Position numbers and translations under genes: made by a program
Assembly (NCBI GenBank): GCA_947561395.2
Contig: OX387183.1
Location: forward strand, 42,576,901-42,640,900
DNA length: 64,000 bases
Direction: 5' to 3'
Origin: Buxus sempervirens
Taxonomy: Eukaryota > Streptophyta > Magnoliopsida > Buxales > Buxaceae
The notes under the pieces: generated by a model
Seen by the model: the letters and a program-made list of their open reading frames with translations, nothing else
Told to the model about the DNA's origin: nothing
Database searches by the model: none
Part shown: one piece after another, positions 29,758-64,000 of the stretch
Position numbering within the stretch: the stretch's first letter is position 1
How the letters are laid out: every line of letters begins with the position of its first letter

Positions 29758-29770
29758 CGAAAATTTTGCC

Positions 29771-35240: not shown

Positions 35241-35299
35241 CATGGTCCAACCTCGTGATACTGAGCTCAAACCAACCTTCTAAACCGGGTTCTCTTTCC

Positions 35300-35883: not shown

Positions 35884-37227
35884 ATGGAACAGACATCGTC
35901 AGGACAGGACCAGGCAGAGTCCAGTCAGACACAGACAGTGGCTGATTTACAACAGAGGATTGATAGCATGGGTACCATCATTCAGGAATTAATGATAGAA
36001 TTAAGAGAACTGAGAATGGCTCCCCCCGCTACACCAGTGACTCTGCAGCAGCCGATTGCTCCACCACAGGCAGAAGCTCCGCCGACATACCCGGTATATC
36101 CAGCTCCATTAGTACCACCGCCCCCTCCACAGGCAGTGCCTCTTCCTCAGGTTATTGCACCTGCCCAACTGGGGCAAGAAGAGGAAGATTGGTATAGAAC
36201 ACAGCAGGCCCAGTTTGATGAAAAGATGGTAGCTACTAAGTCAGAGGTAGATGCTTTGCGTGAAGAGCTGAAAAGCCTACGACCCAGTGCGGTCCCCATG
36301 GAGGCTACTTTAGACAGCCTCTGCTTCTTCTCTGATGTTCAACTTCCACCAAAATTCAAGTGCCCTGACTTGCATCAGTTTGACGGCACCGGGTGCCCAT
36401 TAAACCACCTCAGGTCATACTCTGGAGATATGTGTCAATATGCTAAAAATGAAAAAATTATGATACAGTTCTTTCAGAGGTCGCTGACAGGGGCAGCATA
36501 CACTTGGTTTTTGAGTCTGGACAAAACCAAGATCAAGACTTGGAATGATTTGGCCGCAGCATTCATTCAGCAGTACCGTTTGAATAGTCAGATTGTGCAA
36601 ACTAGGGCAGAGCTGCAAAGGCTGACGAAGAAAAATCAGGAATCTGTACGAGAGTATGCCAAGAGATGGAAAGAATTGGCGACCCTAGTCCAACCCCCAC
36701 TACTTGAACAGGAGATGACCTCCTTGTTCATTGCATCACTTGGACAACCATTCTTTTCCTTGCTACTGGGGCAAAGTACTTCCAATTTTAATGACTTGAT
36801 TTTGATGGCAGACAGAATTGAAGATGCGGTTAGGGCTGGAAAGATAGATGGCAGTGACCAAGGCCCTACACAGAGAAGGGCTGCGACAGGACAAAGTGGC
36901 AGAAGTCAGGGGCAAGAGCCTAGAAGGCAGGAAACTCAGGCTGTTAATTATGTACAGCCAACACAGCCTTACTATATCTCTCAAAGGCCTGAAGGCCAGG
37001 GGCAACCCATGAGAAGAACCAGAGAAGAGGCAGAGGCAAGAATGAAGAGGGTTTTTACCCCGCTACCTTATGCACCTGCAGAACTATTGGCTACACTTCT
37101 GAAGAAGGGGTACCTTCAAATCAAGCCTCCTAACCACAGAATGATCAACTCACGAAGTTATAATACAGCAGAGAGATGCGAGTATCATTCTGGAGCTCCC
37201 GGGCATTCAACAAATTGATGCTAGGAC
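35884..37227 (+). pseudogene. gag: Gag of Tat element F (capsid, CHHC knuckle), nonsense at C-terminus
   Basis: I start at ATG 35884 (MEQTSSGQDQ); the frame is open further upstream without an ATG. Regions: Gln-rich coiled-coil N-terminus, Pro-rich linker (about residues 65-115), capsid with PPKFKCPDLHQFDGTG and FFQRSLTGAAYTWF, then RVFTPLPYAPAELL and a knuckle CEYHSGAPGHSTN. The knuckle type is CX2HX5HX4C and its last part falls on TGA 37216 and TAG 37222. These replace an Arg and a Trp that are conserved in the matching protein of element G. The frame runs straight on into protease. It forms the particle core and binds genomic RNA. Confidence 0.88.
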
Positions 37228-38901
37228 TTGAGGCATGACATACAGGATCTGATAGACAGTAAGAAGATCTCTGTAGATCCCCCAGCACCAGCAGCACCTA
37301 CTCCTCCTACTGGTATAGCCACTAACCCCCTCCCAGACCACTCTAAGGCTTCTGGCAGCGGAACAGTACACCAGATCATCAGTGATCAAGACAGTGAACT
37401 ACAGGTTGACCCGTCCCTGCTAATTGGACGACCGAGGCAAATTGTCAAGATTCATCTCCAAGAAGGGACAATCTATCAACAGATACATGTCATTAATGAA
37501 GAGGAGGAGGAAGAAACCTTCATGGGGTTCCCTCTGGTGCATTTCAACTTTCCCGAACCAGAGCCTTTCTATCCTCCACCTGTCCCAAACTCACCCCCAC
37601 TAAACATCTTCGACATGATGAACCCATTCAATGAGCCTGTGGACTTCCTACTGGAACAACCCACCCTTAACTTACAACAACTTCACCTTGACCCAACCTA
37701 CTCCGCGGTACCTCCACCTTACCAATTCTTACCCATGTACCATGATTCTACCATCACTTCCACAGAAAGAGAAGTCGATCGGATCACCCGTTCTGGTCGA
37801 TATATCAACCCTAACTCTCTACCTGCACCAGAGGGAGAGACTAGTGAAGAAAGAACAAGGAAAGAAAAATGGAAGGATGTGGCCGCTGAAATGCCACAGA
37901 CCCATAAGAAGAAAGGGAAGGCCCCAGAAGAAGAGATTGAAAAACTCCACTATAGTGCCTTCACTCCGGAGTATGATCTAGTGCAGCAGTTGAATAAGAC
38001 ACCAGCCCAGATATCCATTATGCGTCTCTTGTTGGACTCAGACAAACATAAAGACGTACTCATGAAAATACTGGGTGATACTCATGTGCCTGATGATATC
38101 AGCCCTGAGCAGCTAGAGACAGTAATGTCTATAATTGCTACACCAGAAGCAATCTCTTTTTCCTCAGCAGACTTGCCCCCTGAAGGTCACAATCACACAG
38201 AGCCTCTGTTTATCACAGTAAGGTGCTCCGACTTGATGGTGAGACGGGTCATGATCGATAACGGGTCAGCTTTAAATATCTGCCCAGTCAGGACCTTCCA
38301 CAGTCTGCAGCTGAACGCTGATTTAATCAAGCCTAGCTCCAACAATGTCCGCGGGTTTGACAATGCCAAGAAGGATTCCCTGGGGGAAGTTAATCTGGAA
38401 GTTATAATTGCTGAGAGGGCCTTCTTCATTACCTTTGAGTTGATGGACATCAATGCCTCCTTTAATTTGCTGATTGGAAGACCTTGGTTACATCAAGCAG
38501 GGACAGTCCCGTCCACCCTACATCGAATGATCCGATTTATTTCGGGAAATCAATTGATCACAGTGCATGCAGAAAATCACAGAGAATTTGAACAAGGAGG
38601 GGTACCTGTGATTGATTATGAGCTGCATACTTCCCTGAAATTCCAAGCCATTGAAATGGTGCAGATAAACAGCATTCCTACTCCTCTGCAATCAGACTTG
38701 TCCCGCAGAAGGAAAAGGAAGAACATGTTCGGTGCTGCTAAATGCGCCGACTGGGGCCTCCGAGTAGGAGAAGGTTTAGGCAAATACAAGCAAGGCATCA
38801 AGTCTGCAATCCAGCCATATGACAAATTTGTGGGCTTTGGATTGGGGTTTGTTCCTGAACCTGAAGACTATGTCAGGCTATTCGGCAGGAAAGCTGAATG
38901 A
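37228..38901 (+). pseudogene. pol: Gag-pol linker and aspartic protease of element F
   Basis: In the same frame as gag and open for 557 codons. It has a long Pro-rich linker and ERTRKEKWKDVAAEMPQ near 37850. The retropepsin active site reads MIDNGSALNI (Asp codon 38257), and LLIGRPWLHQAG lies near 38469. DNGS rather than DTG/DSG is, as far as I recall, usual in Tat proteases. A G-patch-like stretch (CADWGLRVGEGLGKYKQGIK) follows at about 38740-38800. TGA 38899 stops it; the frame continues after the stop. It cleaves the Gag-Pol polyprotein. Confidence 0.82.
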
Positions 38902-40923
38902 AAGAGGGCACGAGCAGAAGGAAGAGACCCACACTGGCCCATCTGTGTACATGGCCAATTATACCATCACTTTACCAATATGGAGAGGGAAGCTGCACAG
39001 GCCATTCAGAACATAGTCCTCCAGGGATGGGGCGATGAGTTCAATGATCCAGCGAAGCAAGCGGAAGCTAATTATCTGCAAAGGTTATGGGACGAACCTC
39101 CCTTGCCCCAGGAGACAGTTACAGAAGAGAACTCAGAGGCTCTGAGTGGGATGATGGAAGAACTATCTGCTTTGTTCTCTTGGCAGTCAGTTGACACCGA
39201 AAAACCAGCTATCCCAGAAGAAGCATTTGCCTATCCATCAGATGATGTCGGGGCACCGCCAACTGAGGCTGAAGAAGAAGAGCCAGTTCAGTACATCTCC
39301 ATGATGGAAAGCCAGGATAGTTCAGGAAAACCCACTCTAAGGCAAAGGTCTCCCTCACCTCCTATCTGCATTATACACCCAAGTACAAGGGATGGTCTGG
39401 GTCAGATGTTCCAGAATATGCCCCAAGTACTAGGACTGCCCACTGAGCTGGCTTATCACGAGACTTATGGTAACTGGGCCCCTGACGAACATTCTTCCAG
39501 CAGGAGGGATGAATCATCAGGAAAATCTGTTACCAAGGCATTGCCTAAGGTGGAACCACCCAACGAAGTCACTGTTCGGGTATCAGGGACTATCATCCGC
39601 CGCGGGGTATGGATTAGTGTATCATCAGAAGATTCAAGTCAGAATCAACCAAATAAGGGCACAGCTGATGACCCCATCTACATCTCCTCTGACAGCAGCA
39701 TCAGCATGATACAGACTGGGAAGGTGAATGTGGTGACCGCTGTAACCAAAGACAAGCACGCATTGCAGAACTGGAGTTCGACGCCACTTGCCACTCGCAA
39801 AGTTGAACTACCACAGGGAGTTTCTTCCACTTCTGAAATTTCCCCTGTAGATATTGCTGCACTTTTTAATAAATGCGTGAAGTCTTTTGATTATTTTTCT
39901 GCTTCTGTGAATAATTCTGCGAGTAAGCAAACTCAAAATCGCAACCTTAATATCAATCTCGACGCACACCCGAAAAATTCGGAGCACGAGATAGATAATC
40001 AGGCTGCCAAAATCAAACAAAAACAAAAAGAACAAAAAGAAATCCAAAGTGTCGAGCAGGAATCAAGTAACGACACTTACTCATCACAACCCGATGATTC
40101 AGAAATTATCCCCAGTGATCCTTATGAACTTGAGGATAATGATGAATCATGGGAGACCCCACCTGAAATCCAATTTGCCTTGGACAGGCATGAAAAAGGT
40201 CTCCAGGCTAACATTGAGGAAACTGAACCTATCAACATAGGTGACACAGCACATCCAAGGATTCGTCAAGTTGGTAAAAAGCTGACATTATTACGGAAAA
40301 TACAGATAACTGATTTTCTGAAAACCTACACAGATGTGTTTGCATGGTCATATGAGGATATGCCTGGGTTGGACACGGATTTAGTTGTGCACCGGTTACC
40401 TATAAAGTCTGAGGCCACACCAGTGAAGCAAAAACTCAGACGCATGAAACCAGAATGGGCCCTAAAGATCAAGGAAGAAGTTGCCAAGCAGTTAAAAGCT
40501 GGGTTCTTGAAAGTTACAGATTACCCAGAATGGTTAGCAAACATTGTGCCAGTCCCCAAGAAAGATGGAAGGGTCAGGATGTGTGTTGACTACAGGGATC
40601 TGAACAAGGCAAGCCCAAAGGATGACTTCCCATTGCCACACATTGATATACTGGTTGATAATACCGCAACTCATTCCATGTTCTCCTTTATGGATGGATT
40701 CTCCGGGTATAATCAGATACGAATGGTACCTGAAGACATGGAGAAGACTTCCTTCATCACGCATTGGGGCACATACTGCTACAAAGTAATGCCATTTGGG
40801 TTGAAAAATGCAGGCGCCACATACCAGCGGGCAATGACTTTGCTATTCCACGACCTGATACACAAGGAAATGGAAGTATACGTGGATGATATGATTGCAA
40901 AGTAAAAAGAAGAGGAAAATCAT
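38902..40923 (+). pseudogene. pol: Linker and reverse transcriptase of element F
   Basis: Same frame. A long acidic, Ser-rich, low-conservation linker (about 39000-40250) precedes the polymerase. Polymerase motifs are WLANIVPVPKKDGRVRMCVD, FMDGFSGYNQI, MPFGLKNAGATYQ and VYVDDMIAK (YVDD 40879-40890), all intact. TAA 40903 falls two codons after DDMIAK. It copies element RNA into DNA in the cytoplasmic particle. The catalytic Asp pair is present, so loss of function comes only from the nonsense codons. Confidence 0.88.
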
Positions 40924-41769
40924 TTGGTGAACCTTGGAAAGGTGTTTGACAGGCTCAGGGAATGCAAGCTCAGGCTGAACCCGAATAAGTGTGTATTCGG
41001 AGTTACTTCAGGGAAGCTACTCGGATTCATCGTTGGAAAACGAGGAATTGAGGTCGACCCAGTCAAAGTAAAGGCAATTCTGGAGATGCCTCCCCCATCC
41101 ACAGAGAAAGAAATAAGAGGTTTCCTTGGCAGATTACAGTACATCAGCCGGTTCATAGCACAGATGATTCCCGTGTGCAAACCAATATTCAAATTGCTAA
41201 AGAAGGATAACCCAGTGGTCTGGAATGAGGATTGTCAAGAGGCATTTGACAAGATCAAGGCATATCTGATGAGTCCGCCAACTTTGGTCCCACCAGTACC
41301 AGGATGACCCTTGATCATGTACTTGTCAGTCACGGAGACAGCGGCCGGATGCGTCCTAGGGCAACATGACGATACAGGAAGAAAGGAACAAGCAATTTAT
41401 TATCTAAGCAAGAAATTTACCAATTATGAAGTAAGATACACATTGCTTGAGAAGACCTGTGGCGCATTGGTATGGGCAGCTCAAAAGCTCCGGCACTATC
41501 TCCTCAGTCATACTGTCTTTTTGATTTTAGATACAGATCCCCTGAAGTACATTTTTGAAAAGCCAATCTCCACTGGAAGGATAGCCAAGTGGCAGGTTAT
41601 CTTATCTCAGTATGACATTGTTTACATCACGAGAAAGGCAATAAAAGGACAAGCAGTAGCAGATCACCTGGCGGAACACCCTGTGCCTGACTATCAGCCT
41701 CTTATCACCGGATCGCCGGATGATGAAATAATGTGTGCCGAGTCAGCAGAAGAGGAAACAGGATGGTAG
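40924..41769 (+). pseudogene. pol: Reverse transcriptase thumb and first, degenerate RNase H of element F
   Basis: The connection motif FLGRLQYISRFIA (near 41119) precedes TGA 41305. RNase H-like motifs YYLSKKFTNYEVRYTLLEK, LRHYLL and AVADHLAEHP follow. The first catalytic position, Asp in YCDAS-type motifs of element A, reads SVTETAAG here, so this RNase H probably lacks activity. That fits known Tat elements, where a second RNase H takes over. The segment ends with TAG 41767, in a position consistent with a former Gln codon. Confidence 0.83.
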
Positions 41770-43494
41770 ATGTTCTTTGATGGGGCCGTCAACATCAATG
41801 GGAAAGGGATTGGAGCAATAATCATTTCCCCAGAGGGAGTCCATCATCCAATAGTAGCAAAACTCTTGTTCGATTGCACTAACAACATGGCAGAATACGA
41901 AGCATGTGTGTTAGGCTTGCGAGCTGCAATTGAAATGAACATCCAAGAGTTAAAAGTTTATGGTGATTCCTGTCTAATCATCTACCAAGTAATGGGAGAT
42001 TGGCGGACTAAGGACCCAAAATTGGTGCCATATCAGGAACTGATTAAGGAATTGGAAGGACAGTTCAAAAATGTGACATTTGATTATATGCCACGAGACA
42101 GGAATCAATTTGCAGATGCCCTGGCAACACTGGCATCTATGGCAACCATCACTGGGGACACTTGGGTACAACCATTGGAGATAGAAGTGCGGCATTCTCC
42201 TGTCTACTGTTTTAATGTTGAAAGAAGCACACCAAAAGGGGAACCCTGGTATGCAGACATAATGAGGTACCAGAGAAACAGGACTTTGCCAGAAAATGCC
42301 ACAGCATCTGAAAGGCGCACGATTCAGAAACTGGCAGGACAGTTCTTCCTCAGTGTAGACAAGCTATACAAAAAGTCCTATAATGATTCACTGCTGCTAT
42401 GTGTAACAGAAGAAGAGGCACAACAGCTGGTTGATGAAGTCCATGGGGGACAATGTGGCGCACATATGAACGGACATATGCTAGCAAGGAAAATCTTGAG
42501 AATGGGTTATTACTGGTTAACTATGGAACATGATTGCCACATCCATGTAAGGAAATGCCAGTTATGCCAAGTTTATGCTGACAACATTCATGCACCGCCC
42601 AACACCTTGTACTCAATGACTTCTCCTTGGCCCTTCGCCATCTGGGGAATTGATATGATTGGAGAGATCCATCCGAAGGCATCAAATGGGCACCGATTCA
42701 TCTTGGTTGCAATAGACTATTTTACCAAGTGGGTAGAGGCCGTGTCCTTTACAGAGGTCAAAGGGTCTCAGGTGCTGAAATTCATCAGAAACAACATTGT
42801 TTGTCGCTATGGTGTGCCTGAAGCACTTATCACAGACAATGCCAAGAATTTGAATAACAAGGACATGGACAAGATGTGTGGCGAATTGAAAATTAGACAT
42901 CTAAATTCCACAGCATACAGACCCAAGATGAATGGGGCGGTAGAGGCTGCCAACAAAAATCTGAAGAAGATATTGGAAAAGATGGTAATCACTTACAGAG
43001 ACTGGCATGAGAAGTTGCCATATGCTTTGCATGCATACCGAACCTCAATCAGGGTCTCAACCGGGGCAACTCCTTTCTCTCTTGTATATGGAATGGAGGC
43101 AGTCCTTCCCATAGAAGTGCAGATCCCTTCGCTCAGAATCCTGAAGGAAGCAGAGGTTGATGACATTGAATGGGAAGAATCAAGGTTTGACCAGTTGCAG
43201 TTGCTTGATGAAAAAAGAATCAAAGCTTTGTGCCATGGACAGCTCTATCAGCAGAGAGCAGCTCGGACTTATAACAAGAAAGTAATACCACGACACTTCA
43301 AGGTGGGCAACATTGTTATGAAAAAGATATTCCCCCACCAAGAAGACAATAAAGGGAAATTCAAGCCAAACTATGAAGGACCTTTCATAGTACACAAAGT
43401 TCTGTCCAGAGGAGCACTAATCCTACAAGAGATGGACGGGACTATTCTTCCCGAGCTAATAAATGCAGATGCAGTCAAACTGTATTATCCTTGA
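41770..43494 (+). CDS. pol: Second (archaeal-type) RNase H and D35E integrase of element F, intact 574-codon segment
   Basis: The N-terminus is a complete RNase H: FFDGA (Asp 41779), NMAEYEA, VYGDS and FADALATL supply the D-E-D-D set. Tat elements are known to carry such an acquired RNase H. Integrase follows: zinc finger HGGQCGAH and CQLC, catalytic Asp in WGIDMIG (42652), Asp in ITDN (42835) and Glu in GAVEAAN (42943), with exact D35E spacing. The C-terminal part has FKPNYEGPFIV, and there is no chromodomain. All catalytic residues are present. The piece is downstream of six nonsense codons, so it would be made only if upstream stops were bypassed; I list it as CDS for its intactness. Confidence 0.85.
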   Translation: MFFDGAVNINGKGIGAIIISPEGVHHPIVAKLLFDCTNNMAEYEACVLGLRAAIEMNIQELKVYGDSCLIIYQVMGDWRTKDPKLVPYQELIKELEGQFKNVTFDYMPRDRNQFADALATLASMATITGDTWVQPLEIEVRHSPVYCFNVERSTPKGEPWYADIMRYQRNRTLPENATASERRTIQKLAGQFFLSVDKLYKKSYNDSLLLCVTEEEAQQLVDEVHGGQCGAHMNGHMLARKILRMGYYWLTMEHDCHIHVRKCQLCQVYADNIHAPPNTLYSMTSPWPFAIWGIDMIGEIHPKASNGHRFILVAIDYFTKWVEAVSFTEVKGSQVLKFIRNNIVCRYGVPEALITDNAKNLNNKDMDKMCGELKIRHLNSTAYRPKMNGAVEAANKNLKKILEKMVITYRDWHEKLPYALHAYRTSIRVSTGATPFSLVYGMEAVLPIEVQIPSLRILKEAEVDDIEWEESRFDQLQLLDEKRIKALCHGQLYQQRAARTYNKKVIPRHFKVGNIVMKKIFPHQEDNKGKFKPNYEGPFIVHKVLSRGALILQEMDGTILPELINADAVKLYYP

Positions 43495-45303: not shown

Positions 45304-47698
45304 TGTTAGCACCTGATTTTTGCACCCCTAAAATGGCAAAAATGAACAGTCAAACTTTTAGTCAAACCCTGAGGGGGTCAAAAATTGACTTTTTGATTCA
45401 AGTAAATTTGGCCATCAAACTTCATCTCATTGAAAAAAGCGTTTCGACACGATTCCAACGCAACTGAATTTGCTGGAATCAGAGTCCAGATGAGAAAGAT
45501 ATGAACTGGTCAAACTTTTGAAGGGGCAAAAGTTGACTTTTTGCTCAACCCCAATTCAACTGCCAAATTAGATCCCAATGGATAGGTGATTCTGAGCCGG
45601 TTCCAACGACACTAAGTTTGCTGAAATCGGACACTGGATGAAGAAGTTATGAGCAGTTGAAGTTTCAGAAAAACTGCCTATGTGGCAAAAAAGGCAGTAA
45701 AAATGGAATAAACCAATAAAATAAATAAGATAAATGTGTTTAATAATATTTTAATAAAGAGAATCTCGCTTTTTAATAAAATAATCGAAAAATCGAATAA
45801 GAATCTTGCAAAAAACCAAATTGAATAAAGATTTGAAATCCAAACATTTTAAAAACGTGCTGGACCGTATTCTCATTACGGGCAGGGCATGCCCGTATTT
45901 GAAATACGGGCAAGATTCCGGAAGAAAACACGCGTCACCGTACGGCGGGACACGCGTCCCATACGGCTGATTCGCGAGATTTGCAAATGTGCGTTTTTCG
46001 CCCGTATTTGAATTACGGGCAAGGCACGCTCGTATTTGAAGTACGGGTAAGGCACGCCCGTACTTCAAATACGGGCACGAAAATTTTGCCTATAAATAGA
46101 GAGGCCACCCCCCTCATTTCAACAAGCCCTCTCCTCTGGCCTTCCCCCTTTCCCTCCTGGTGCAGTCCACGGCCAAGCCCTGCCCAACCACCACCACCCT
46201 TAACCCAAACTTATTTTAATCCCCAAATTACCCCTACATTTCTAAACTACCCCAAAACCATGCCCAAATTCTCTTCAGTTTGGTCTTAAACCCATCCACC
46301 TTAACCAAGCTCTTCCTCTTTCATCCTAACAAAATTTGGAGGACACGGAAGCGCTGCCGGAATCGTCCGAGAACCACTACATCATCAAGTCAAAGAAATA
46401 ACATTTTGGTAACCTTTTCAACATCTTCCTTTTTCAATATAAATACATGTGAATTATTTTTTTTACTGTGTTACTAACTCAGTTGCTGTTTTGAGTAACA
46501 TGAGGAGATGATAATAAAGAGTGGGTCATTATAAAAAAGAGAGGAAGAAAGTGTCTAAAGGACACTTTAATGAACAAATTTAATGATCCACTTTATTCTT
46601 TAATATGACCTGAAGATGCATGAATCTTTGTAAAATCTCCTCCCCTCTCTTGAATGAGGATTTCGGATTGGTTGAACAAATAAAGAAGGAGAAAAAGCAC
46701 AAGAACCAAAGAAGATGAGAAGAGAAGAAAAGTGGCTTTATAAGCCCAATGAAGGAAATGTGGAACCTGGAAGGAAAGCAGAAGCCCGGTGGAGGTTACC
46801 AGAAGACCCAGAAAAGCCACGGAACTGATCCAGATCGAAATCGGCAGCAAATATGCAAACTAAATCGCGTCCGTAAACTCAGGCCGGTCCAACCTGAACC
46901 GTGTTTGATTCACGGACAGGAGAGACCGTAGTCAATTCACGGACAGGTTGGACCGTAGAGAAAAAACGGGCAAATGCAAAAATGATGTAAAAGTGTAATT
47001 TCTTGGTTCGGTTGGACCTGATCCGGTCTAAACCATTCCCTTAAACCACTTGGGCTATTTTAAGCCCATTTTTGGACTTTGGGCCTAGATAGGCCCATCA
47101 AGATCCCTTTGGCCCACTTGTGGGGCCCACTTTTGACTGGTCCATACCAGGCTTGTTTTTAATAAACAGGCCCAAGACCACTTGACTCTTGGCGAATGGG
47201 CCAAATCCAAGCCCACTAAGCCCATGGAATATGTAAATAAATAAGATAACCAAATGGGTTACCCAATAACCCAACTGGGCCCAAAGCCCAACCATGGCAA
47301 CCCACGGGTCTTCCAACAGGACCCTGATCCGACCCACTCCACTTAAGTCAATAAGAAGATAAAATCAAATAAAAAGGGACCCACACCTCCAAAGGGCCCC
47401 ACCAGACCCAATAAACAGCATGCTGGTTTAGGAAGGGTGAAATTGACTCATAAACCAGGGAGACCCGAGGGACCCGTCAAACCGACAGGGCGGACCGGGG
47501 TGTCTTTAGGACTTCCCCGGATCGTAACCGAGGACTTAGCTAGAACTCTAAAAAGCTGCAGACCAGACTTATACCCGGATAGGGCAACACCGTGTCTGCC
47601 TGCACCTCTCAGGCAGTGGCGACTCCGAATGTCCCGAGGCACGCACGAAAGGTGCGCCCGGTGTGCGATCTAGGATCCAGGATTTTTAGGTGCGCACA
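45304..47698 (+). repeat. 3' LTR of element F
   Basis: Same length (2395 bp) as the 5' LTR, about 31 mismatches, no indels. A cluster of five differences lies within about 30 bp near 47554-47578. It is followed by TSD CCCAA (47699-47703). Confidence 0.95.
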
Positions 47699-47771: not shown

Positions 47772-48844
47772 TGTGCGAGCGTGGGAAACGCGGCACGGGA
47801 AATCGGAGTCGCCACCGCCTGATGGGGTGCAGGCGGACACCTGGGTGCCTAATCTTGCCTATTAGGGCTTTTTGGTCTGCGGCTTAAGATTCTAAGTCTG
47901 TTCTCGGTTGTGGTTCGGGGAAGTCCGTAGACACCCCGGTCCACCCCGTCGGATAACGGGTCCCGTGGGTTCCCTGGTTTGAGTCAGCTTACATTGGTCT
48001 CACCTGATTCCTAATCCGATATGCAATTTGGTTAAGTCTGGCGGGACCACCTGAGTGGTGTGGGTCCCTTTAGTTGCTTTTATCTTGATTACTTAGGTGA
48101 CCTGAGTCTGATTGGGTGGGCCCCGTTGGGAGGCCCACGGTATCCTTGGTGGGCTTAGTCAAGCCCGTGTGCCCTTGTGGGCCTTGGCTTATCCTAGGAG
48201 GCCCTTTGGGCTTTGGTTGGTGCATTGATTTTACTTTAGATTCAGATTTGAAGGTTAAGTGTTTTTTTATGCACAAGTGGGCCGGACTGGTTTGTGGGCC
48301 CCTTAGGTGGGCCCATATGGTGGCCAAGTATTTTTTTTTATTGAACTTATCTTTTTAATTTCGCCAAAGTGATTCGGACATTGGGCTTGGGGCCCGCGGT
48401 CCAAATCTGGGCTTGTAAGCCCAAGTTACCAGGAATTAGGGTTTGCACCCTTCCTTGGTTCGGTTGGTGGGCTTTGGCGGGCCCGGTAGGCCCTTGCCCT
48501 TGGTCTCGGCCAAACCACGCAATTCATGCATCAATTTCACATAACAAGGCTCGGGTGGGCCGCATTGGGTTTGGCCCCCCGGTTCAAATTGTTCATTTTA
48601 CTTAAGTTATTTAATGGCATGCTTTGGTGTTTATTGGGCTGGGTGGGCCCCGTTGGAAGGCCCACTGGAAGTCAAGTTGGACCGGCGTCCAAGTCCCACA
48701 TTGGGTTTCCGGGTGACCCAGAAACCCTATTGGTTTATTCGGTTCGGTTCAGAAATGGCATTCACGTCTAGCAATAATTACAGAAAAAAAACACAAGATG
48801 GACACTTGTCAGAAAAAAACTGGCTCATTGTGCTGTTTTGGACC

Positions 48845-49115
48845 TGGCGCTCACCTCCTGAGGTGAGCGCCAGGTGGGCGCCAGATGGGCGCCAGAATCC
48901 GGGCGAAATTTTGACCTGGCGCTCACCCGATACCAGGTGAGCGCGAGCTGGGCGGGAGGTGAGCGCGAGATGGGCGGGAGGTGAGCGCGAGATGGGCGCG
49001 GGAATTTCGCTTGGTTTTAGGTGGGCGCGAGCTGAGCGCCAGGTGGGCGCCAGCTCGGCGGGAAATGAAGTGAAAGGGGCGCCCACCTCCTAGGTGAGCG
49101 CCAGGTGGGCGGCAG
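48845..49115. repeat. GCGCTCACC/GGTGAGCGC palindrome array, LTR G
   Basis: TGGCGCTCACCT and AGGTGAGCGCCA flank a few bases at 48845-48873. A roughly 22-bp unit (GATGGGCGGGAGGTGAGCGCGA) is then repeated. The matching array in the 5' LTR (61810-62120) has one more unit, so copy number changed after or during insertion. Confidence 0.82.
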
Positions 49116-49977
49116 CTCACTGCGATTTTCAACTCTCTGTTTTTTTGAGATCTCCACCTCTGGCCGAATTTTTTAGGTCTGTAACTGTTCCACTAGCCTC
49201 CTAACATGCCCAGAACACCTCCCAACTAATTTTGGATTTAATCTAAACACATTTTATTTCAAGTTTTGAAAACCAAGAAAACTCACAGTACAGACATGCA
49301 TTCAAAATACTTCACGAATAATATGCCCAGGACACTTCCCCAGGCTTCGACCACTCCCAGAGGGCACTTAAACTCGTATTGAAATTAACCTAAGCTAACA
49401 TATCGCAAACCGAACCTCAAAATCACACATCAACAAATTAACAATGAAGGGACAAGGGGGTTTATAATGGGGTACACGAGATGAAATGACCACGGGGAAC
49501 ATGCTCCCCTTCGAATCACACAAGTAGTATTAGTAAACAAGATGGTAGAATGTAAAACATCATGACATTCTATGCTCGAAATGAACTTATATTCAAAAAA
49601 AAAGAATGGTCGGGAACATTACCTGGGTGTCGGAACACCCTTCTGAAGTGAGCAGGTAGGCTCCCCCTTTTGAAGCTCAAGCAGTGGCTGGACTCTCCTC
49701 CTTTAGGCTCACCCGGCAAGCTCCTCCTTCTCCTTTGGGTTTGATGAGGAAGAAGAGGAAGAGAGGAATGGGGAAGAAAGGTCCGAGAAAGGTGGGGGAA
49801 GAAGTGTCTGGTTTGTTCTTTGGGGAAGATGGTGGTCAAGACCACCTATGCCCGACGAAGAAGGAGCTCAAAATCTCCAAAAGAAGCTCCCAACCCGAAA
49901 ACAGCCAACCAAAAAAATCCAGCCTCTTAGCTTTTTTTCGAAATCTTCCCACCTCCTGCGCGAGAAGTCGCGCGGCT

Positions 49978-49985
49978 TATATAAG
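49978..49985 (-). promoter_or_regulatory. TATA box of G's 3' LTR
   Basis: TTATATAA lies about 1125 bp from the LTR start, with the GCCCACCTT palindrome just upstream in the sense direction. The copy in the 5' LTR is at 62990-62997. Confidence 0.55.
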
Positions 49986-51110
49986 CCAGAAAAAAAAAGG
50001 TGCCGCCCACCTTGGCGCCCAGCTCAAGGTGGGCGCATGCTCGCTCGCCACGTCCGCGCGAGCGGCATAATGATGAAAATCATTTAATGCCGCCGCTCGC
50101 AGGACGTAAAAATCTGAAAAATTCAGATTTAGTCCCTGGCAATTTTTGATTTAATCCGATATTCTCGGATTTTCACGGATTTAGTCCCTGGGATATTTCG
50201 TATGTTTGGATATTTACTGATTTGATCCCCGAGATATTTTCCTGCGCAACTCGCCACGTGTGCAGCTTTTTGCCACGTGCGCAGATTGCCGGTTTTGCTG
50301 CTTGGAAATTTCATCAGCTCATATTTTCTTCATCCGGACTCCGATCTAGGCAAACTTAGTTTCATTAGAATCGTATCGGAGCCCTCCATCCCATGACCTA
50401 GGGGTAGGCCTCCGGATCGGATTTTAGCAGAAAGTCAACTTTTGGCTCTGCTCAAGTTTGACCGCCCGCAGAACCTTCATCCGGACCCCGATTCCTGCAA
50501 ACTCAGTTGCGTTGGAACCGTGTCGAGATTATCTATCCAATGACCTAGGGGTAGGCCTCTGGATCGGATTTTAGCAGAAAGTCAACTTTTGGCTCTGCTC
50601 AAGTTTGACCGCCCGCAGAACCTTCATCCGGACCCCGATTCCTGCAAACTCAGTTGCGTTGGAATCGTGTCGAGATTCTCTATCCAATGACCTAGGGGTA
50701 GGTCTCTGGATCGGATTTTAGTAGAAAGTCAACTTTTGGCTCTGCTCAGGTTTGACCGCCCGCAGAACCTTCATCCGGACCCCGATTCCTGCAAACTCAG
50801 TTGCGTTGGAACCGTGTCGAGATTCTCTATCCAATGGTATAAAGCTAGGTACTTGGCACGGAATTCGAGGAAAAGTCAACTCTTGGCTTTTCCTTAAGTT
50901 TGACCACCCGCAGAACCTTCATCCGGACTCCGATTCCTGCAAACTCAGTTGCGTTGGAACCGTGTCGAGATTCTCTATCCAATGGCATAAAGCGAGGTGG
51001 CCAAATTTCACTTGATCAAAAAGTCAACTTTTCACCCCTTAGGGTTTGACTTTCTGTCCAGGGTTTGCATTTTTGGTTTTTCTGGGAGCGCAAAAAATGA
51101 GGTGCTTACA

Positions 51111-51154: not shown

Positions 51155-51880
51155 AGAAAAAGAATCTCGTTTTTGCGCCTGGCATTTCTGTCAACATGGT
51201 CGACGAGCTTAGTCCTTTAAAGTTTTCATTTTGAAAGGGAAGCGGCCAAATCATGTGGCGCCACTTCCTGGCTTCAAAGTTTCCTTACCCTTTTCTTTTT
51301 GGGTTTTTGTAGGGCAACTCTTCAGCATTTTAGTTTAAGTTTGAAAGAGATTAGATTGGACTTGAGCTCGCCAACCTGTTTCGGCGTTGATGCCAGACAC
51401 TTGACAATATTCTTTTCTTCTTGTTTGTTCCATTAAAGCTTTTAGGTGACTTCAGACTTCTGATCCATTTTGTGTCTTTTACTTGAAGCTTGCTTGCATT
51501 TTTCTGTTTTTTTTATTTTTTATTTTTTTTTATTATTATTATTTTTTATTTTTTTTATTTTTAGGATTTGATGGCCAAGGGTTGGGTTGGGATGTGGACC
51601 GAATGGAGAAAGGAGGAAGGAAGAGTGGAGGAGGAGCTGCTGTTGGTGAGGAGGTGCTTCCAGCGCTGTCCAGTGCCTCAAGGGAGCCCACACACCTGCT
51701 CTACTCTATTTACAAAAGTGTGAAATCAAAATTACAAAAGGGGCCATCTTGCCCGATGATATCTTCAGTTATGCTCATTCTTCTTCATGTCTTGTCATTC
51801 CTATCATTTCCAAGAATGGGAACAACTTGTTCAACTTTCTGGAGACACTTTGCTCTGGGGACGCTTGGTCCTTCAACATT
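51155..51880 (-). other. 3' region of element G before the minisatellite
   Basis: It includes a T-rich low-complexity stretch on the plus strand (about 51500-51562). I see no gene; the plus-strand frames here have no recognisable domain. Confidence 0.5.
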
Positions 51881-51889
51881 GGGAGATGC

Positions 51890-53930
51890 TCTGCTCCATT
51901 AGGGATTTCAGAGATGGGAGGTGCTTTGCTCCTTTAGTTTTGGGGAGACACCTTGCTCTTTAGTTACTTCAAACGTGGGAGTCACCTTGCTCCTTGGGGA
52001 CACATTTCCGTGTCATTCAAAGTGGTGGGAGACGCCTTGCTCCTTAGGGACACATTTCCGTATCGTTCAAATGGTAGGAGGCACCTTACTTCAGGGACGC
52101 CTTGCCCTTTCAGTCTTGAGAGACGCCTTGCTCTCTGTGGTTGGGAGACACCTTGCTCCATTAGTTTTGGAGTCGCCTTGCTCCAGGGACGCCTTGCCCT
52201 TTTAGTCTTGAGAGACGCCTTGCTCTCTGTGGTTGGGAGACACCTTGCTCCATTAGTTTCGGAGTCGCCTTGCTCCAGGGACGCCTTGCCCTTTTAGTCT
52301 TGAGAGACGCCTTGCTCTCTGTGGTTGGGAGACACCTTGCTCCATTAGTTTTGGAGTCGCCTTGCTCCAGGGACGCCTTGCCCTTTTAGTCTTGAGAGAC
52401 GTCTTGCTCTCTGTGGTTGGGAGACACCTTGCTCCATTAGTTTCGGAGTCGCCTTGCTCCAGGGACGCCTTGCCCTTTTAGTCTTGAGAGACGCCTTGCT
52501 CTCTGTGGTTGGGAGACACCTTGCTCCATTAGTTTTGGAGTCACCTTGCTCCAGGGACGCCTTGCCCTTTTAGTCTTGAGAGATGTCTTGCTCTTTGTGG
52601 TTGGGAGACACCTTACTCCATTAGTTTCGGAGTCGCCTTGCTCCAGGGACGCCTTGCCCTTTTAGTCTTGAGAGACGCCTTGCTTTCTGTGGTTGGGAGA
52701 CACCTTGCTCCATTAGTTTCGGAGTCGCCTTGCTCCAGGGACGCCTTGCCTTTTTAGTCTTGAGAGACGCCTTGCTCTCTGTGGTTGGGAGACACCTTGC
52801 TCCATTAGTTTGGGAGATGCCTTGCTCCAGGGACGCCTTGCCCTTTCAGTCTTGAGAGACGCCTTGCTCTCGGTGGTCGGGAGACACCTTGCTCCATTAG
52901 TTTGGGAGACGCCTTGCTCCATTAGTTTGGGAGACGCCTTGCTCCTTCTGTTTTTAATTCTTGGAGGCGCCTTGCTCCATTCTGTGTTCAATTTTTTGGG
53001 AGACGCCTTGCTCCATTAGGGTTGAGAGACACCTTGCTCCTTCTGTCTTCAATTCTTGGAGGCTCCTTGCTCCATTCTATCTTAAAATTTTGGAGGCTTC
53101 TTGCTCCATTAAGGTTAGGAGACGCCTTACTCCTTCTGTCTTCAATTCTTGGAGGCTCCTTGCTCCGTTCTGTCTTCAAATTCAATTTTTTGGGAGACGC
53201 CTTGCTCCTTAATTTTTCAATTCCTGGAGGCTTCTCGCTCCATTCTGTCTTCAAATTTTGGAGGCTTCTTGCTCCATTAAGGTTGGGAGACGCCTTACTC
53301 CTTCTGTCTTCAATTCTTGGAGGCTCCTTGCTCCGTTCTGTCTTCAAATTCAATTTTTTGGGAGACGCCTTGCTCCTTAATTTTTCAATTCCTGGAGGCT
53401 CCTCGCTCCATTCTGTCTTCAAATTTTGGAGGCTTCTTGCTCCATTAAGGTTGGGAGACGCCTTACTCCTTCTGTCTTCAATTCTTGGAGGCTCCTTGCT
53501 CCGTTCTGTCTTCAAATTTTGAAGCCTTCTTGCTCCATTAAGGTTGGGAGACGCCTTACTCCTTCTGTCTTCAATTCTTGGAGGCTCCTTGCTCCGTTCT
53601 GTCTTCAAATTCTTGGAGGCTCTTTGCTCCGTTCTGTCTTCAAATTCAATTTTTTTGGAGACGCCTTGCTCCTTAATTTTTCATTTCCTGGAGGCTCCTT
53701 GCTCCATTCTGTCTTCAAATTCAATTTTTTGGGAGACTCCTTGCTCCTTAATTTTCTAATTCCTGGAGGCTCCTTGCTCCATTCTGTCTTCAAATTTTGT
53801 TTTTTGGGAGACGCCTTGCTCCTTAATTTTTCAATTCTCGGAGGCTCCTCGCTCCATTTTGTCTTCAAATTTTGGAGGCTTCTTGCCCCATTTTGTCTTT
53901 GTCCATTACTTATTCTGACTTGGTAATTTC
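51890..53930. repeat. Hairpin minisatellite of element G, 2 kb
   Basis: From 52094 a 92-bp higher-order unit repeats nine times (starts at 52094, 52186, 52278, 52370, 52462, 52554, 52646, 52738 and 52830). Each has four subunits around the octamer ACGCCTTG: GGG/CCC, GAGAG/CTCTC, GGAG/CTCC and GGAG/CTCC arms. From about 52890 to 53930 a second form (GGAGGCTCCTTGCTCC, TTCTGTCTTCAAATT) with GGAG/CTCC arms takes over. Long frames stay open on both strands (206 codons minus at 52988-53608, 166 codons plus), which reflects repeat composition. Ogre/Tat elements are known to have variable tandem repeats in this 3' position. Confidence 0.9.
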
Positions 53931-58381: not shown

Positions 58382-60720
58382 TCCAGTCCTCCCTCATTGT
58401 GAAGGCCAAGCTACGAATGGTGCTCTAAATGTGAGTTATCTAAACTGTACCTGATTAAGAGAAATTTTGATCAGTTCCTTCCTTAATTATGAATGAAGTG
58501 TCGTGTGTGACGAGATCATTACACTGAATGGTGCTTTTGTGCCGTGCTTGGCGGAAACAAATACGATGCGGCTCATGCATAGAAACCACGACTTGACGAA
58601 ACAATATTGTGAAGAAAGTGTGACAGTGCACTGGTTGATCGGAGAACCCCTAGGGTGTGAATTTTAAACCTTGTAATATGGTCTTTCAGGGATCTGAAGC
58701 TCTAGAGACCCCGCCATATCTGGCAGTTTTCAAAAATCGTGCAACATGTGCTTTATGCGTGGAAATCCTTGAAAAAAAAGTTGCGAGGACTAAACCTCAA
58801 ACTTCATGCCTTGATCAACAGCGATCGTAAAATCCTTTAAAATCATGCAACGGCAAATGAATTATAAAGATCAGAAAATGCATTTTGGACAGCCCACATC
58901 ATGCCGTAACTGGCATGGAGAATTTCTGCCAAAGATGGGTGATTTGATTTACGTCTATATGGATGGCACAATATAACCAGTAATGATGGCTTATTGTGCA
59001 TCGCGAGAGACGATGTTGATGTCACGAAAGACAATTCAATGTAGGCCCGGAGGCCGTTTTATTGTGTGCTTTGAAAAAGCAGCATTGATGTGCGCCCCGA
59101 AAGGCGGCTTGATGTACGCTCGAAGGCGATTTAATGTACGCCCGAAGGCGATTTAATGTACGCCTGAAGGCGATTTGATGTACGCCCAGAGGCGACTTTG
59201 GTTTAGGAAATTCTTTTGTGTACTTTTGAAAGTGGTTTGGCCAAAAACATTTGTGCAAATGATCTCGAAGTGCGTGCACTTAATGTATATATGTGCATGT
59301 ACATAAGCAAAATGAACTCAAATCCTATTACCGTCTAGCAAATCTATGTTATTAAACAACCCTAAAAAACACCCAAAAGTGTGTGTCAGTCCTAAAAAAT
59401 GGTTGGTGCCTATCAAGGCACGACTCCTAGACATACTTGTGTAAGGAAGCACGTCCAAGTCCTGACTGGTCTTTCTGTCTTTCATCTGTTCTTTCATCTG
59501 CTTTTGGCGTCGTACCACAGCAAAAATTACAACTTGCCATCGAGGGCGAAGGTTTACAAGATATTTATAAAAACTTCAAAGAATTCATCCTTAAGGCTGT
59601 TGGGAGCCAAAAGGGAGGATACAAATTGCTTTCCAAGCGGGTAGGCTAAAAATTCCTAGATCTAGGGTTTAGTGCCCATGTTCTGATCTCGCATGCTTTC
59701 GTCTGTTTGTCTGATCTGGCCGGCTTTCATCTGCTCTAAAAGACCAATCTGTACTTAAAGTGCTCCCAGCGGACTCTAATGGGTCAAGACCCATAGCATA
59801 CAGGACTCCATGCATGGATCTGGGGTGGTTCCCCTGATCATGGTTAGGTGAGTTTCCTAAGCTAGGGCCGAGGTAGCCCAGCATCTAGGGTTTACTCCAT
59901 TTGATGCAAAAAGCGGGGGTTGCTGCCCCTGATGGACTCTGAATTTTATTCCAATTTTATTCATCATTCACATCCTACTCACCCTCTCATGCTCAACGCA
60001 AGGTTCATTCAGAAACGTTAGGTGGGGAAGGATACCCTGCCCGAGACATAAGCCTACAAGGGTCTAGACCAGTACTGGATCCTCGCGTGCCACGGCAAGA
60101 AACCAGTGGTGCTAATGGACTCCAGCAAACTGGGGGGATGGGTTTACCCTGCTTTCCCCGGCAAGCCACGGGAGCGTAGGTGCTAATACCATCCCAAAGA
60201 TCAGTTCATAGGAATCAGAAGGGTAGGCTGCTAGAGAGGTCTAGGTTTGGTAAAGAAGTAGCAATGTCCGATTTCACTCATCTACCAAGGGTCGGATCAT
60301 TCACGCAGCCTCCCTCGTGCGTGTCACCCCACGCAGTTTATCTCACAAGAACGGAAATAAAAACCCATCCACGGTGTGGTGGTGTGCCCATGTGTGCAGT
60401 TGGGCCGCGTGCTGTGTCTACACAGGTGAGTTTTGTCTAGATTTTGTTGGTAAAGGGATTGTTACTGTCTCGTATAGTAAGGTGCAGAATTAGCACGCAA
60501 TACGAGGTTCCGGGAGAGTCCCCAGGTAAGTGGGGGTCACAAGGGACCGCTTAAATCCCACTTGCCTTAGGCAATTAACGCGTCCTTTTGACAGGACTCC
60601 CCAGAACGCGTAATTACGCGTATTCTGTATCTTACTAAACGAGGTAGTAAGAAGCCCTAAACATCAACTAAATCTCTCTTTATGCTGACTAATCTAACCA
60701 GGGTCCTACTGGGCTGGACT
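58382..60720 (-). other. Leader of element G
   Basis: In inverse order it has the leader blocks of F: CTTGCCATCGAGGGCGAAGG near 59533, CATCTGTTCTTTCATCTG near 59482, GGGGAAGGATACCCTGCCC, GGCAAGCCACGGGAGCGTAG, ACCAAACCTAGACCTCTCTAG-type and GTGTCACCCCACGCAG near 60320. It holds no ORF1 equivalent, unlike F. The hairpin array at 58999-59233 is listed separately. Confidence 0.7.
58999..59233 (-). repeat. Ten-unit hairpin array with changing stems in leader of G
   Basis: Coordinates on the plus strand. Stems: CATCG/CGATG (58999-59015), TGTC/GACA (59020-59033), GGCC/GGCC (59044-59055), GCTTT/AAAGC (59068-59080), CGCC/GGCG (59093-59106), CGCT/GGCG with one wobble (59117-59128), CGCC/GGCG (59139-59150, 59161-59172, 59183-59194) and ACTT/AAGT (59222-59233). 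Loops are mostly CGAA, TGAA or CGAAA-like. Spacers read TTGATGT or TTAATGTA, and the regular part has a 22-bp period. Confidence 0.88.
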
Positions 60721-60740
60721 TGTCCCCAGTGGAGTCGCCA
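60721..60740 (-). promoter_or_regulatory. Primer-binding site of element G (tRNA-Arg type)
   Basis: The minus strand reads TGGCGACTCCACTGGGGACA, three bases after the LTR end at 60744. One base differs from the site of element B. Confidence 0.83.
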
Positions 60741-60743
60741 AGC

Positions 60744-63700
60744 TGTGCGAGCGTGGGAAACGCGGCACGGGAAATCGGAGTCGCCACCGCCTGATGGGGT
60801 GCAGGCGGACACCTGGGTGCCTAATCTTGCCTATTAGGGCTTTTTGGTCTGCGGCTTGAGATTCTAAGTCTGTTCTCGGTTGTGGTTCGGGGAAGTCCGT
60901 AGACACCCCGGTCCACCCCGTCGGATGACGGGTCCCGTGGGTTCCCTGGTTTGAGTCAGCTTACATTGGTCTCACCTGATTCCTAATCCGATATGCAATT
61001 TGGTTAAGTCTGGCGGGACCACCTGAGTGGTGTGGGTCCCTTTAGTTGCTTTTATCTTGATTACTTAGGTGACCTGAGTCTGATTGGGTGGGCCCCGTTG
61101 GGAGGCCCACGGTATCCTTGGTGGGCTTAGTCAAGCCCGTGTGCCCTTGTGGGCCTTGGCCTATCCTAGGAGGCCCTTTGGGCTTTGGTTGGTGCATTGA
61201 TTTTACTTTAGATTCAGATTTGAAGGTTAAGTGTTTTTTTATGCACAAGTGGGCCGGACTGGTTTGTGGGCCCCTTAGGTGGGCCCATATGGTGGCCAAG
61301 TATTTTTTTTTATTGAACTTATCTTTTTAATTTCGCCAAAGTGATTCGGACATTGGGCTTGGGGCCCGCGGTCCAAATCTGGGCTTGTAAGCCCAAGTTA
61401 CCAGGAATTAGGGTTTGCACCCTTCCTTGGTTTGGTTGGTGGGCTTTGGCGGGCCCGGTAGGCCCTTGCCCTTGGTCTCGGCCAAACCACGCAATTCATG
61501 CATCAATTTCACATAACAAGGCTCGGGTGGGCCGCATTGGGTTTGGCCCGCCCGGTTCAAATTGTTCATTTTACTTAAGTTATTTAATGGCATGCTTTGG
61601 TGTTTATTGGGCTGGGTGGGCCCCGTTGGAAGGCCCACTGGAAGTCAAGTTGGACCGGGGTCCAAGTCCCACATTGGGTTTCCAGGTGACCCAGAAACCC
61701 TATTGGTTTATTCGGTTCGGTTCGGAAATGGCATTCACGTCTAGCAATAATTACAGAAAAAAAACACAAGATGGACACTTGTCAGAAAAAAACTGGCTCA
61801 TTGTGCTGTTTTGGACATGGCACTCACCTTCTGAGGTGAGCGCCAGGTGGGCGCCAGATGGGCGCCAGAATCCGGGCGAAATTTTGACCTGGCGCTCACC
61901 CGATACCAGGTGAGCGCGAGCTGGGCGGGAGGTGAGCGCGAGATGGGCGGGAGGTGAGCGCGAGATGGGCGGGAGGTGAGCGTGAGATGGGCGCGGGAAT
62001 TTCGCTTGGTTTTAGGTGGGCGCGAGCTGAGCGCCAGGTGGGCGCCAGCTCGGCGGGAAATGAAGTGAAAGGGGCGCCCACCTCCTAGGTGAGCGCCAGG
62101 TGGGCGGCAGCTCACTGCGATTTTCAACTCTCTGTTTTTTTGAGATCTCCACCTCTGGCCGAATTTTTTAGGTCTGTAACTGTTCCACTAGCCTCCCAAC
62201 ATGCCCAGAACACCTTCCAACTAATTTTGGATTTAATCTAAACACATTTTATTTCAAGTTTTGAAAACCCAGAAAACTCACAGTACAGACATGCATTCAA
62301 AATAATTCACGAATAATATGCCCAGGACACTTCCCCGGGCTTTGACCACTCCCAGAGGGCACTTAAACTCGTATTGAAATTAACCTAAGCTAACATATCG
62401 CAAACCGAACCTCAAAATCACACATCAACAAATTAACAGTGAAGGGACAAGGGGGTTTATAATGGGGTACACGAGATGAAATGACCACGGGGAACATGCT
62501 CCCCTTCGAATCACACAAGTAGTATTAGTAAACAAGATGGTAGAATGTAAAACATCATGACATGCTATGCTCGAAATGAACTTATATTCAAAAAAAAAGA
62601 ATGGTCGGGAACATTACCTGGGTGTCGGAACACCCTTCTGAAGTGAGCAGGTAGGCTCCCCCTTTTGAAGCTCAAGCAGCGGCTGGACTCTCCTCCTTTA
62701 GGCTCACCCGGCAAGCTCCTCCTTCTCCTTTGGGTTTGATGAGGAAGAAGAGGAAGAGAGGAATGGGGAAGAAAGGTCCGAGAAAGGTGGGGGAAGAAGT
62801 GTCTGGTTTGTTCTTTGGGGAAGATGGTGGTCAAGGGGAAGATGGTGGTCAAGACCACCTATGCCCGACGAAGAAGGAGCTCAAAATCTCCAAAAGAAGC
62901 TCCCAACCCGAAAACAGCCAACCAAAAAAATCCAGCCTCTTAGCTTTTTTTCGAAATCTTCCCACCTCCTGCGCGAGAAGTCGCGCGGCTTATATAAGCC
63001 AGAAAAAAAAAGGTGCCGCCCACCTTGGCGCCCAGCTCAAGGTGGGCGCATGCTCGCTCGCCACGTCCGCGCGAGCGGCATAATGATGAAAATCATTTAA
63101 TGCCGCCGCTCGCAGGACGTAAAAATCTGAAAAATTCAGATTTAGTCCCTGGCAATTTTTGATTTAATCCGATATTCTCGGATTTTCACGGATTTAGTCC
63201 CTGGGATATTTCGTATGTTTGGATATTTACTGATTTGATCCCCGAGATATTTTCCTACGCAACTCGCCACGTGTGCAGCTTTTTGCCACATGCGCAGATT
63301 GCCGGTTTTGCTGCTTGGAAATTTCATCAGCTCATATTTTCTTCATCCGGACTCCGATCTGGGCAAACTTAGTTTCATTAGAATCGTATCGGAGCCCTCC
63401 ATCCCATGACCTAGGGGTAGGCCTCCGGATCGGATTTTAGCAGAAAGTCAACTTTTGGCTCTGCTCAAGTTTGACTGCCCGCAGAACCTTCATCCGGACC
63501 CCGATTCCTGCAAACTCAGTTGCGTTGGAACCGTGTCGAGATTCTTTATCCAATGACCTAGGGGTAGGCCTCTGGATCGGATTTTAGCAGAAAGTCAACT
63601 TTTGGCTCTGCTCAAGTTTGACCGCCCGCAGAACCTTCATCCGGACCCCGATTCCTGCAAACTCAGTTGCGTTGGAATCGTGTCGAGATTCTCTATCCAA

Positions 63701-64000
63701 TGACCTAGGGGTAGGTCTCTGGATCGGATTTTAGTAGAAAGTCAACTTTTGGCTCTGCTCAGGTTTGACCACCCGCAGAACCTTCATCCGGACCCCGATT
63801 CCTACAAACTCAGTTGCGTTGGAACCTTGTCGAGATTCTCTATCCAATGGTATAAAGCTAGGTACTTGGCACGGAATTCGAGGAAAAGTCAACTCTTGGC
63901 TTTTCCTTAAGTTTGACCGCCCGCAGAACGTTCATCCGGACTCCGATTCCTGCAAACTCAGTTGCGTTGGAACCGTGTCGAGATTCTCTATCCAATGGCA
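60744..64000 (-). repeat. 5' LTR of element G (incomplete at window edge)
   Basis: It matches 47772-51110 closely. Two length differences are visible: an extra roughly 22-bp palindrome unit near 61960-61990 and an 18-bp duplication (GGGGAAGATGGTGGTCAA) near 62830. TTATATAA is at 62990-62997 and upstream-module copies run from about 63330 to the edge. Its sense-strand start lies about 120 bp beyond the window. Confidence 0.9.

Follow-up and report, generated by a model that had tools for sequence, protein, structure and literature searches.

The window analysed here, a stretch of 64,000 nucleotides from Buxus sempervirens (contig OX387183.1, positions 42,576,901 to 42,640,900 of the forward strand), looks like plant DNA rich in LTR retrotransposons, among which self-comparison and Pfam matches delineate element F on the plus strand and element G on the minus strand. 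The LTRs of F (28984-31378 and 45304-47698, plus strand) are 98.7% identical to each other. Between them lie, on the same strand, gag (35815-37218) and Pfam matches to RVT_1, the reverse transcriptase (within 38980-40905), RT_RNaseH (within 41311-41769) and RVT_3/RNase_H, then Integrase_H2C2 and rve (within 41770-43494), a second RNase H (aRH) being present between RH and integrase. An extra ORF with a Pfam match to DUF7745/plant mobile domain is found upstream of gag (32640-33554, plus strand), and large non-coding regions with tandem repeats are present in both F and G. Passages of PMC6317226 characterize the Tat lineage of Ty3/gypsy elements (Ogre/Retand type) by aRH, large non-coding regions that often contain tandem repeats, and an extra ORF. 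By its aRH, extra ORF and repeat arrays, F is a Tat/Ogre-like element.

Element G is delimited by self-comparison, with a 5' LTR that is cut by the window end (60744-64000, minus strand) and a 3' LTR, the aligned part of which spans 47772-50987 (minus strand); the pair is 97.8% identical, with 30 mismatches in 3257 aligned columns. A gag ORF of 419 aa matching PF03732 (57122-58381, minus strand) is preceded by a 5' leader of 2362 nt (58382-60743, minus strand), which contains 45 ATG. The pol ORFs of F gave zero matches when compared against G, and the aRH was thus not found in the latter. Given that the Gag proteins of G and F share 55% identity over 349 aa and that their leaders and LTR ends are 68.5% identical, G is described here only as a gag-only LTR retrotransposon, a relative of the Tat/Ogre-like F. 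The LTRs of both elements end in GCACA and are directly followed by a similar TTGGCGACTC stretch, the expected place of a putative primer site. A pattern search of the three sense frames of 58400-53901 (G) and 35801-41000 (F) found no CCHC zinc knuckle near either gag; Gag, if it is the ligand of an RNA, would therefore bind by other means. Two protein searches, one of which scored only the 8000 best candidates, recovered five relatives of Gag, all from plants and all distant (28-31%; two from Tetracentron, two from Coffea and one from Tasmannia). Searches of viral contigs with the F pol ORFs and the Gag alignment, and of genome contigs with the Gag alignment, returned nothing apart from a single short 30% match (L001), DNA patterns of the array described below had no match in viral contigs, and the whole window yielded 0 Rfam matches at gathering score.

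The leader of G contains ten adjacent hairpins, U1 to U10 (58999-59233, minus strand), which are at the position given in the sequence-only reading that had singled them out. Their assignment to the leader also holds, the array being located about 1.5 kb after the LTR, which ends at 60744, and 0.6-0.85 kb before the ATG of gag (58381-57122). Because G reads on the minus strand, this is the sense strand of the array, and the loop, initially described as CGAA-like, is UNCG-like in the sense RNA; in the sense leader of G, neither CGAA nor CGGA forms the loop of a hairpin with perfect arms of 4 bases. The array opens with U1 (ACTT-tcaa-AAGT, 59222-59233), the weakest unit (-0.1 kcal/mol), which is separated by 39 nt from U2 (CGCC-tctg-GGCG, 59183-59194), and continues with U3 (CGCC-ttca-GGCG, 59161-59172), U4 (CGCC-ttcg-GGCG, 59139-59150), the loop of which is, in sense orientation, a C(UUCG)G tetraloop, and U5 (CGCC-ttcg-AGCG, 59117-59128), in which the closing C.A is the sole unpaired cell of 40. 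U6 can be read as CGCC-tttcgg-GGCG or as CGCCT-ttcg-GGGCG (59093-59106) and is followed by U7 (GCTTT-ttc-AAAGC, 59068-59080), U8 (GGCC-tccg-GGCC, 59044-59055), with a tetraloop of the UNCG type, U9 (TGTC-tttcgt-GACA, 59020-59033) and U10 (CATCG-tctctcg-CGATG, 58999-59015). The claim of at least six unrelated stems is borne out in that there are six stem types with a mutual identity of about 0.27, although CGCC/GGCG, mismatched in U5, recurs in five of the ten units (U2-U6), each of the other five types being present in one unit. Similarly, the notion of a shared loop and spacer holds for the first loop base, which is U in 10/10 units and is the sole invariant loop base, but only in part for the rest of the loop, which is variable, and for the spacer, which is degenerate (about YACAYYAA). 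UNCG occurs within the loop of five of the ten units (U4, U5, U6, U8 and U9). The paired stretches end at 4-6 bp, without extension into the spacer, and two of the 45 ATG of the leader fall within the array. By eye and unscored, GCACAATA/TATTGTGC pairs over 18 nt directly after U10 (58966-58999, minus strand), and CATTT-gcac-AAATG and AAGTG-cacg-CACTT are seen just before U1 (59248-59281, minus strand). Given these flanking pairs, the hairpin-rich part may extend beyond U1-U10.

In register, 39 of the 40 stem cells of the ten units are paired, with 12 pair types represented; when the 3' arm is slid by 1-3 bases, 11-18 cells are paired, with 7-9 types. Swapping the 3' arms among the ten units reduces the number of contiguous pairs from the observed 39.0 to 17.1±4.3 (P=0.0001). 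Whereas the arm-swap test used loops chosen by eye, a per-unit shuffle repeats it without fixed loops: the summed fold energy is -49.7 versus -17.2±4.7, with a minimum of -35.2 in 2000 shuffles. The excess is smaller for units with a stem of at least 4, which number nine out of ten versus a shuffle mean of 4.2, nine being reached in 4 of the 2000 shuffles. The array also withstands the comparison with shuffled sequence of the same composition that the sequence-only reading had proposed: its 236 nt contain eight strict hairpins versus 1.02±0.87, with a maximum of four in 300 shuffles. This density (8 per 236 nt) is the highest in the window, tied with that of an array at 27.4-27.7 kb. In a sliding local-fold scan of the sense strand, the windows covering the array have z scores of -4.2 and -3.1; many other windows, several of them in LTRs, have z below -3, down to -7.4. 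Across the whole window, a Y-UNCG-R tetraloop is matched 14 times versus 12.4 expected, which is no excess; four of these 14 matches are sense-strand ones within the array.

The constancy of the different parts of the unit was compared by pairwise identity. Among all ten units, identity is 0.47 and 0.44 for the two arms, 0.50 and 0.45 for the spacers, 0.73 for the first two loop bases and 0.40 for the last two. With one unit per stem type (n=6), the corresponding values are 0.27 and 0.27, which is about random, for the arms, 0.40 and 0.36 for the spacers, 0.70 for the first two loop bases and 0.35 for the last two. The start of the loop is clearly constant, whereas the spacer barely exceeds the stems in constancy.

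When the unit types of a tandem array differ from one another at multiple positions, their columns are linked in a way that may resemble base pairing. We therefore ran a linkage control, in which linked column pairs were counted according to Watson-Crick pairing and to three non-pairing rules, each set of identical rows counting once and only the first and the last loop base of the G leader array being retained. The G leader array has 3 Watson-Crick column pairs versus 0, 0 and 0, which, together with the 39/40 paired cells and the outcome of the arm swap (P=0.0001), sustains the claim that both arms change together. The corresponding counts are 4 versus 2, 2 and 4 in F1, 3 versus 1, 0 and 4 in F2, 6 versus 1, 4 and 4 in F3, 3 versus 1, 2 and 2 in the G 3' array, 0 versus 0, 0 and 0 in the 27 kb array, and 0-6 versus 0-7 in three 147-bp control arrays with only 3-4 units each. 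The G leader array is the only one that stands out, consistent with its earlier designation as the strongest case in the window; it is the one robust case, the similar look of the other arrays being suggestive only. The arm swap gives P values of 0.00005 to 0.008 for the G 3' array (75 units), the 27 kb array (15 units, after exclusion of a 16th, which has no left arm, at its edge), F1 (8 units), F2 (7 units) and F3 (9 units, the search pattern having missed an AACC-attc-GGTT unit at 35615), and is uninformative (P=1) for F3b, the second F3 hairpin (10 units). We considered these arrays as independent replicates and rejected the idea, because linked unit types alone yield similar counts.

Each of the other arrays has features of its own. 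In the G 3' region (51830-53900, minus strand), a CAAGGCGT-like loop is enclosed by GGAG/CTCC, GAGAG/CTCTC or AGGG/CCCT stems in about 75 units; the arms match within unit types, but no better than linkage between types can explain. The strict scan finds 6 hairpins there versus 13.9 in shuffles, which is no test of this array, since the scan covers loops of 3-7 bases and the array loop has 8. At 27403-27742 (plus strand), CCGC-ttggtg-GCGG and CTGC-ttggtg-GCAG hairpins form an array; over the 20 bases compared, its two main unit types are distinguished by the two positions that pair with each other and by an A/T difference beyond the stem. The leader of F harbours three more hairpin-bearing repeat arrays (34250-35725, plus strand), with stems GGCGA/TCGCC and GGGT/ACCC, CTGGT/ACCAG, and AACC/GGTT and AGCC/GGCT, respectively.

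Strict hairpins are in excess in the leader of F (49 versus 26.7 in shuffles, tandem arrays included) and in that of G outside the array (26 versus 12.5), with little excess in the gag-pol region of F (57 versus 48.3) and at 10-20 kb (52 versus 47.4). The excess is not confined to leaders, as it is also found in the F LTR (1.75-fold), the G LTR (1.59), the F 3' region (1.66), at 25.3-28.9 kb (1.73) and in G gag (1.56). Self-comparison of the window reported no match of the G leader array to F. In the leader and U5 stretch common to the two elements, 10 of the 33 G hairpins are intact in F versus 1.9 in column shuffles (0/200 reach this number), including 3 with two-sided change versus 0.40 (1/200), and, reciprocally, 9 of the 21 F hairpins are intact in G versus 1.9 (0/200), including 2 with two-sided change versus 0.34 (9/200); column shuffling ignores the clustering of conserved columns in this comparison. 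For instance, GGGTC-ttccaacag-GACCC in F corresponds to GGGCC-tcccaacgg-GGCCC in G, and GGCT-cccaac-AGCC in G to GGTT-ttcaac-AACC in F. Other measures for the G hairpins in F are ordinary, such as the paired fraction (0.72 versus 0.67, reached in 45/200 shuffles), or unremarkable, such as the two-sided share of changes (0.16 versus 0.09, 22/200), and broken pairs are more numerous than in shuffles (40 versus 20.6).

The F LTR also contains hairpins. At 29680-29756, with a copy near 46000-46077, three long GCCCGTA...TACGGGC hairpins are located just upstream of a TATAAATA box; the loops of neighbouring units are inverted (TTTGAAG/CTTCAAA), and the arms show single changes between the two LTR copies. 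Loop-inversion events, by template switch or by inversion, seem to happen in elements of the F/G type. Downstream of the first TATA-like box of the F LTR (30736-30971, plus strand), inverted repeats of TGGGCY, a putative TCP site II motif, form dense hairpins.

Of the two explanations that the sequence-only reading had offered for the G leader array, a structured RNA and template switching, we prefer the former. We assign a probability of about 0.42 to an RNA array kept for its pairing, most likely a multivalent Gag-binding or packaging signal in the leader of a gag-only element. Under this scenario, a unit of spacer plus stem-loop, about 22 nt long, would have been duplicated in tandem to give the array, and the stems would have drifted with their pairing kept, as if the folded RNA mattered and the stem letters did not. 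Provided that this stretch is transcribed and folds in the cell, the shape so maintained would be a loop that starts with U and often is UNCG, presented every 22 nt or so on a stem of 4-6 bp. Position and analogy suggest that the repeated loops could function as a multivalent binding platform, likely for G's own Gag in RNA selection and packaging; this would suit G, which, devoid of pol, would depend on particles served by a partner, possibly F, for its RNA. Selection for shape is favoured by the near-random identity of the six stems (0.27) next to a first loop base that is the same in all ten units, by the pairing of 39 of the 40 cells across six stems and by the arm-swap (P=0.0001) and linkage (3 versus 0, 0 and 0) results. 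The constant orientation of the loops, the hairpin excess in both leaders and the hairpins preserved between F and G, with the reservations given above, point the same way. The one unpaired cell is near the decay permitted since insertion, as gauged from the 30 differences in 3257 columns of the G LTRs. In the minimum-energy fold of the entire array, several units are joined, which, if anything, speaks against this reading, as do the last two loop bases being less constant than the arms (0.40), the hairpin excess outside leaders, the failure of the pattern search to find a zinc knuckle and the lack of a reported match of the array to F.

The most serious competitor is repair by template switching during reverse transcription or DNA replication, whereby one arm is copied from the other and no RNA function is needed; we consider it a real, if rather doubtful, possibility and place selection for RNA shape ahead of it, although not by much. 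According to passages of PMC8794818, template switching can make perfect stems and compensatory changes with retention of the loop. Among the F LTR hairpins at 29680-29756, the loops of the second and third units are exact reverse complements of each other, the expected trace of such an event, whereas no loop inversion is found among the ten units of the G leader array. Repair is also consistent with the spacers being hardly more constant than the arms over the ten units, which shifts some weight, slightly, away from selection, and with the energies of the single hairpins, which sum to -49.7 kcal/mol on the sense strand and -52.1 kcal/mol on the antisense strand, with no preference for the former. 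A better sense-strand score of the whole-region fold (z -4.23 versus -1.10) was set aside as support, because the single hairpins show no such bias. Furthermore, half-changed stem pairs in the arrays tested by arm swap comprise 11 A.C versus 4 G.U on the sense strand (stem positions 1-4, or 1-3 in F3b; the sense of the 27-kb array is assumed), a lack of G.U bias that agrees with repair and counts against RNA selection, which should tolerate G.U. By contrast, repair leaves the invariance of the first loop base unexplained and does not account for the end of pairing after 4-6 bp, short of the spacer. In the same passages of PMC8794818, UNCG loops are described as stable in RNA only and as not enriched among one-step (instantaneous) compensatory changes, which slightly favours maintenance of the UNCG-type units at the RNA level.

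Two further explanations appear less plausible. A structured leader could assist translation, its hairpins helping ribosomes to bypass the 2.4-kb leader by shunting or internal entry, with no role in packaging. The length of the leader with its 45 ATG before gag and the hairpin excess throughout the F and G leaders are in line with such a role; however, only two ATG lie inside the array, and the leader could be removed by splicing, so that we regard this possibility as distinctly improbable. Slightly more improbable still is an ordinary tandem repeat with linked unit types, in which a few accidentally pairing variants were multiplied and then picked out by eye. Linked types are nearly sufficient for the other arrays of the window (F1, F2, F3, G 3' and 27 kb) in the linkage control but fail for the G leader array, where the counts are 3 versus 0, 0 and 0, every one of the six stem types except CGCC/GGCG is represented by a single unit and 39/40 cells are paired. 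As a broader extension of the preferred reading, the fast-turning tandem arrays of Tat-type elements could represent a modular, multivalent RNA platform, in which a protein reads the loop and the stems drift freely, and which would serve as a packaging tag for gag-only members. We consider this generalization unlikely; if true, hypervariable tandem repeats would be hairpin arrays selected for shape, through which gag-only members compete for particles.

Macas and colleagues reportedly described, in 2009, the hypervariable 3' UTR of Tat/Ogre retrotransposons and the tandem repeats within it. Passages of PMC7004042 document Tat 3' UTR tandem repeats, also in copies without pol, and excerpts of PMC6317226 note non-coding regions with tandem repeats in Tat-type elements. 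Like the G leader array, these 3' UTR repeats, as far as the excerpts describe them, are fast-changing tandem arrays in non-coding parts, including those of non-autonomous, pol-less copies, whereas the G array precedes gag and consists of hairpin units with matching arms. Words starting with hairpin or palindrom are absent from the main texts of PMC7004042 and PMC6317226, and searches of one open-access library, which covers few subscription papers, returned no title or abstract on arrays of hairpins with coordinated stem changes in the leaders of Tat elements. This fits the earlier statement that nothing like the array has been described for Tat elements.

Outside the Tat lineage, parallels are found among packaging signals. 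Excerpts of PMC7599994 describe packaging hairpins ahead of gag in retroviral leaders, such as that with the GGAG tetraloop in HIV-1 Psi, the replacement of which had little effect on packaging, and a title in its reference list mentions a GACG hairpin pair in relatives of murine leukaemia virus. As portrayed there, retroviral packaging hairpins resemble the G array in being short stem-loops with a common loop in the leader before gag; however, retroviral leaders contain few hairpins, whereas the G array, known from sequence alone, comprises ten in tandem, in an element without a zinc knuckle detectable by pattern. Compared with a retroviral-type signal, its loop is partly shared, the first base being common to 10/10 units and UNCG to 5/10. 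Similarly, passages of PMC3662417 depict the packaging signals of MS2 and STNV as many stem-loops with a common loop motif, although these are genome-wide and tied to symmetric coat-protein shells, in contrast to the tight tandem arrangement in the leader of G. A further parallel is the barley BARE2 RNA, which is packaged in BARE1 particles, conserved dimerization/packaging signals being mentioned in the same passages (PMC3735527). BARE1/BARE2 and the putative G/F pair have in common a non-autonomous plant LTR element served by a relative; as depicted in those passages, BARE2 is without Gag, whereas G has Gag and is without pol, and a hairpin array was not seen in the passages on BARE1/BARE2 (PMC3735527). 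With regard to repair, the template-switch hairpins presented in passages of PMC8794818 share with the G array compensatory changes, some of several bases, and a retained loop, but they are from RNA genes (rRNA, microRNA) along reconstructed histories, whereas the G array offers tandem units within one molecule.

Pairing of units despite unrelated stems amounts to a covariation test within a molecule, and the question of selected RNA versus repaired DNA can be answered from other copies of the G family. If selection is the case, the array would provide a handle on the mobilization of gag-only elements. To our knowledge, little is known about the choice of RNA for packaging by plant LTR retrotransposons. 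Likewise, little is known about packaged RNA outside BARE, according to passages of PMC3735527, and passages of PMC7004042 reflect the usual view of the repeat arrays of these elements, in which they arise as by-products of replication and act as seeds of satellite DNA. Elsewhere in the window, long hairpins are present at 1-240 and 7575-7665 (TATCCGGCAT...ATGTCGGATA and GTAGCCGGC...GCCGGCTAC), which adjoin or sit in stretches resembling the G LTR.
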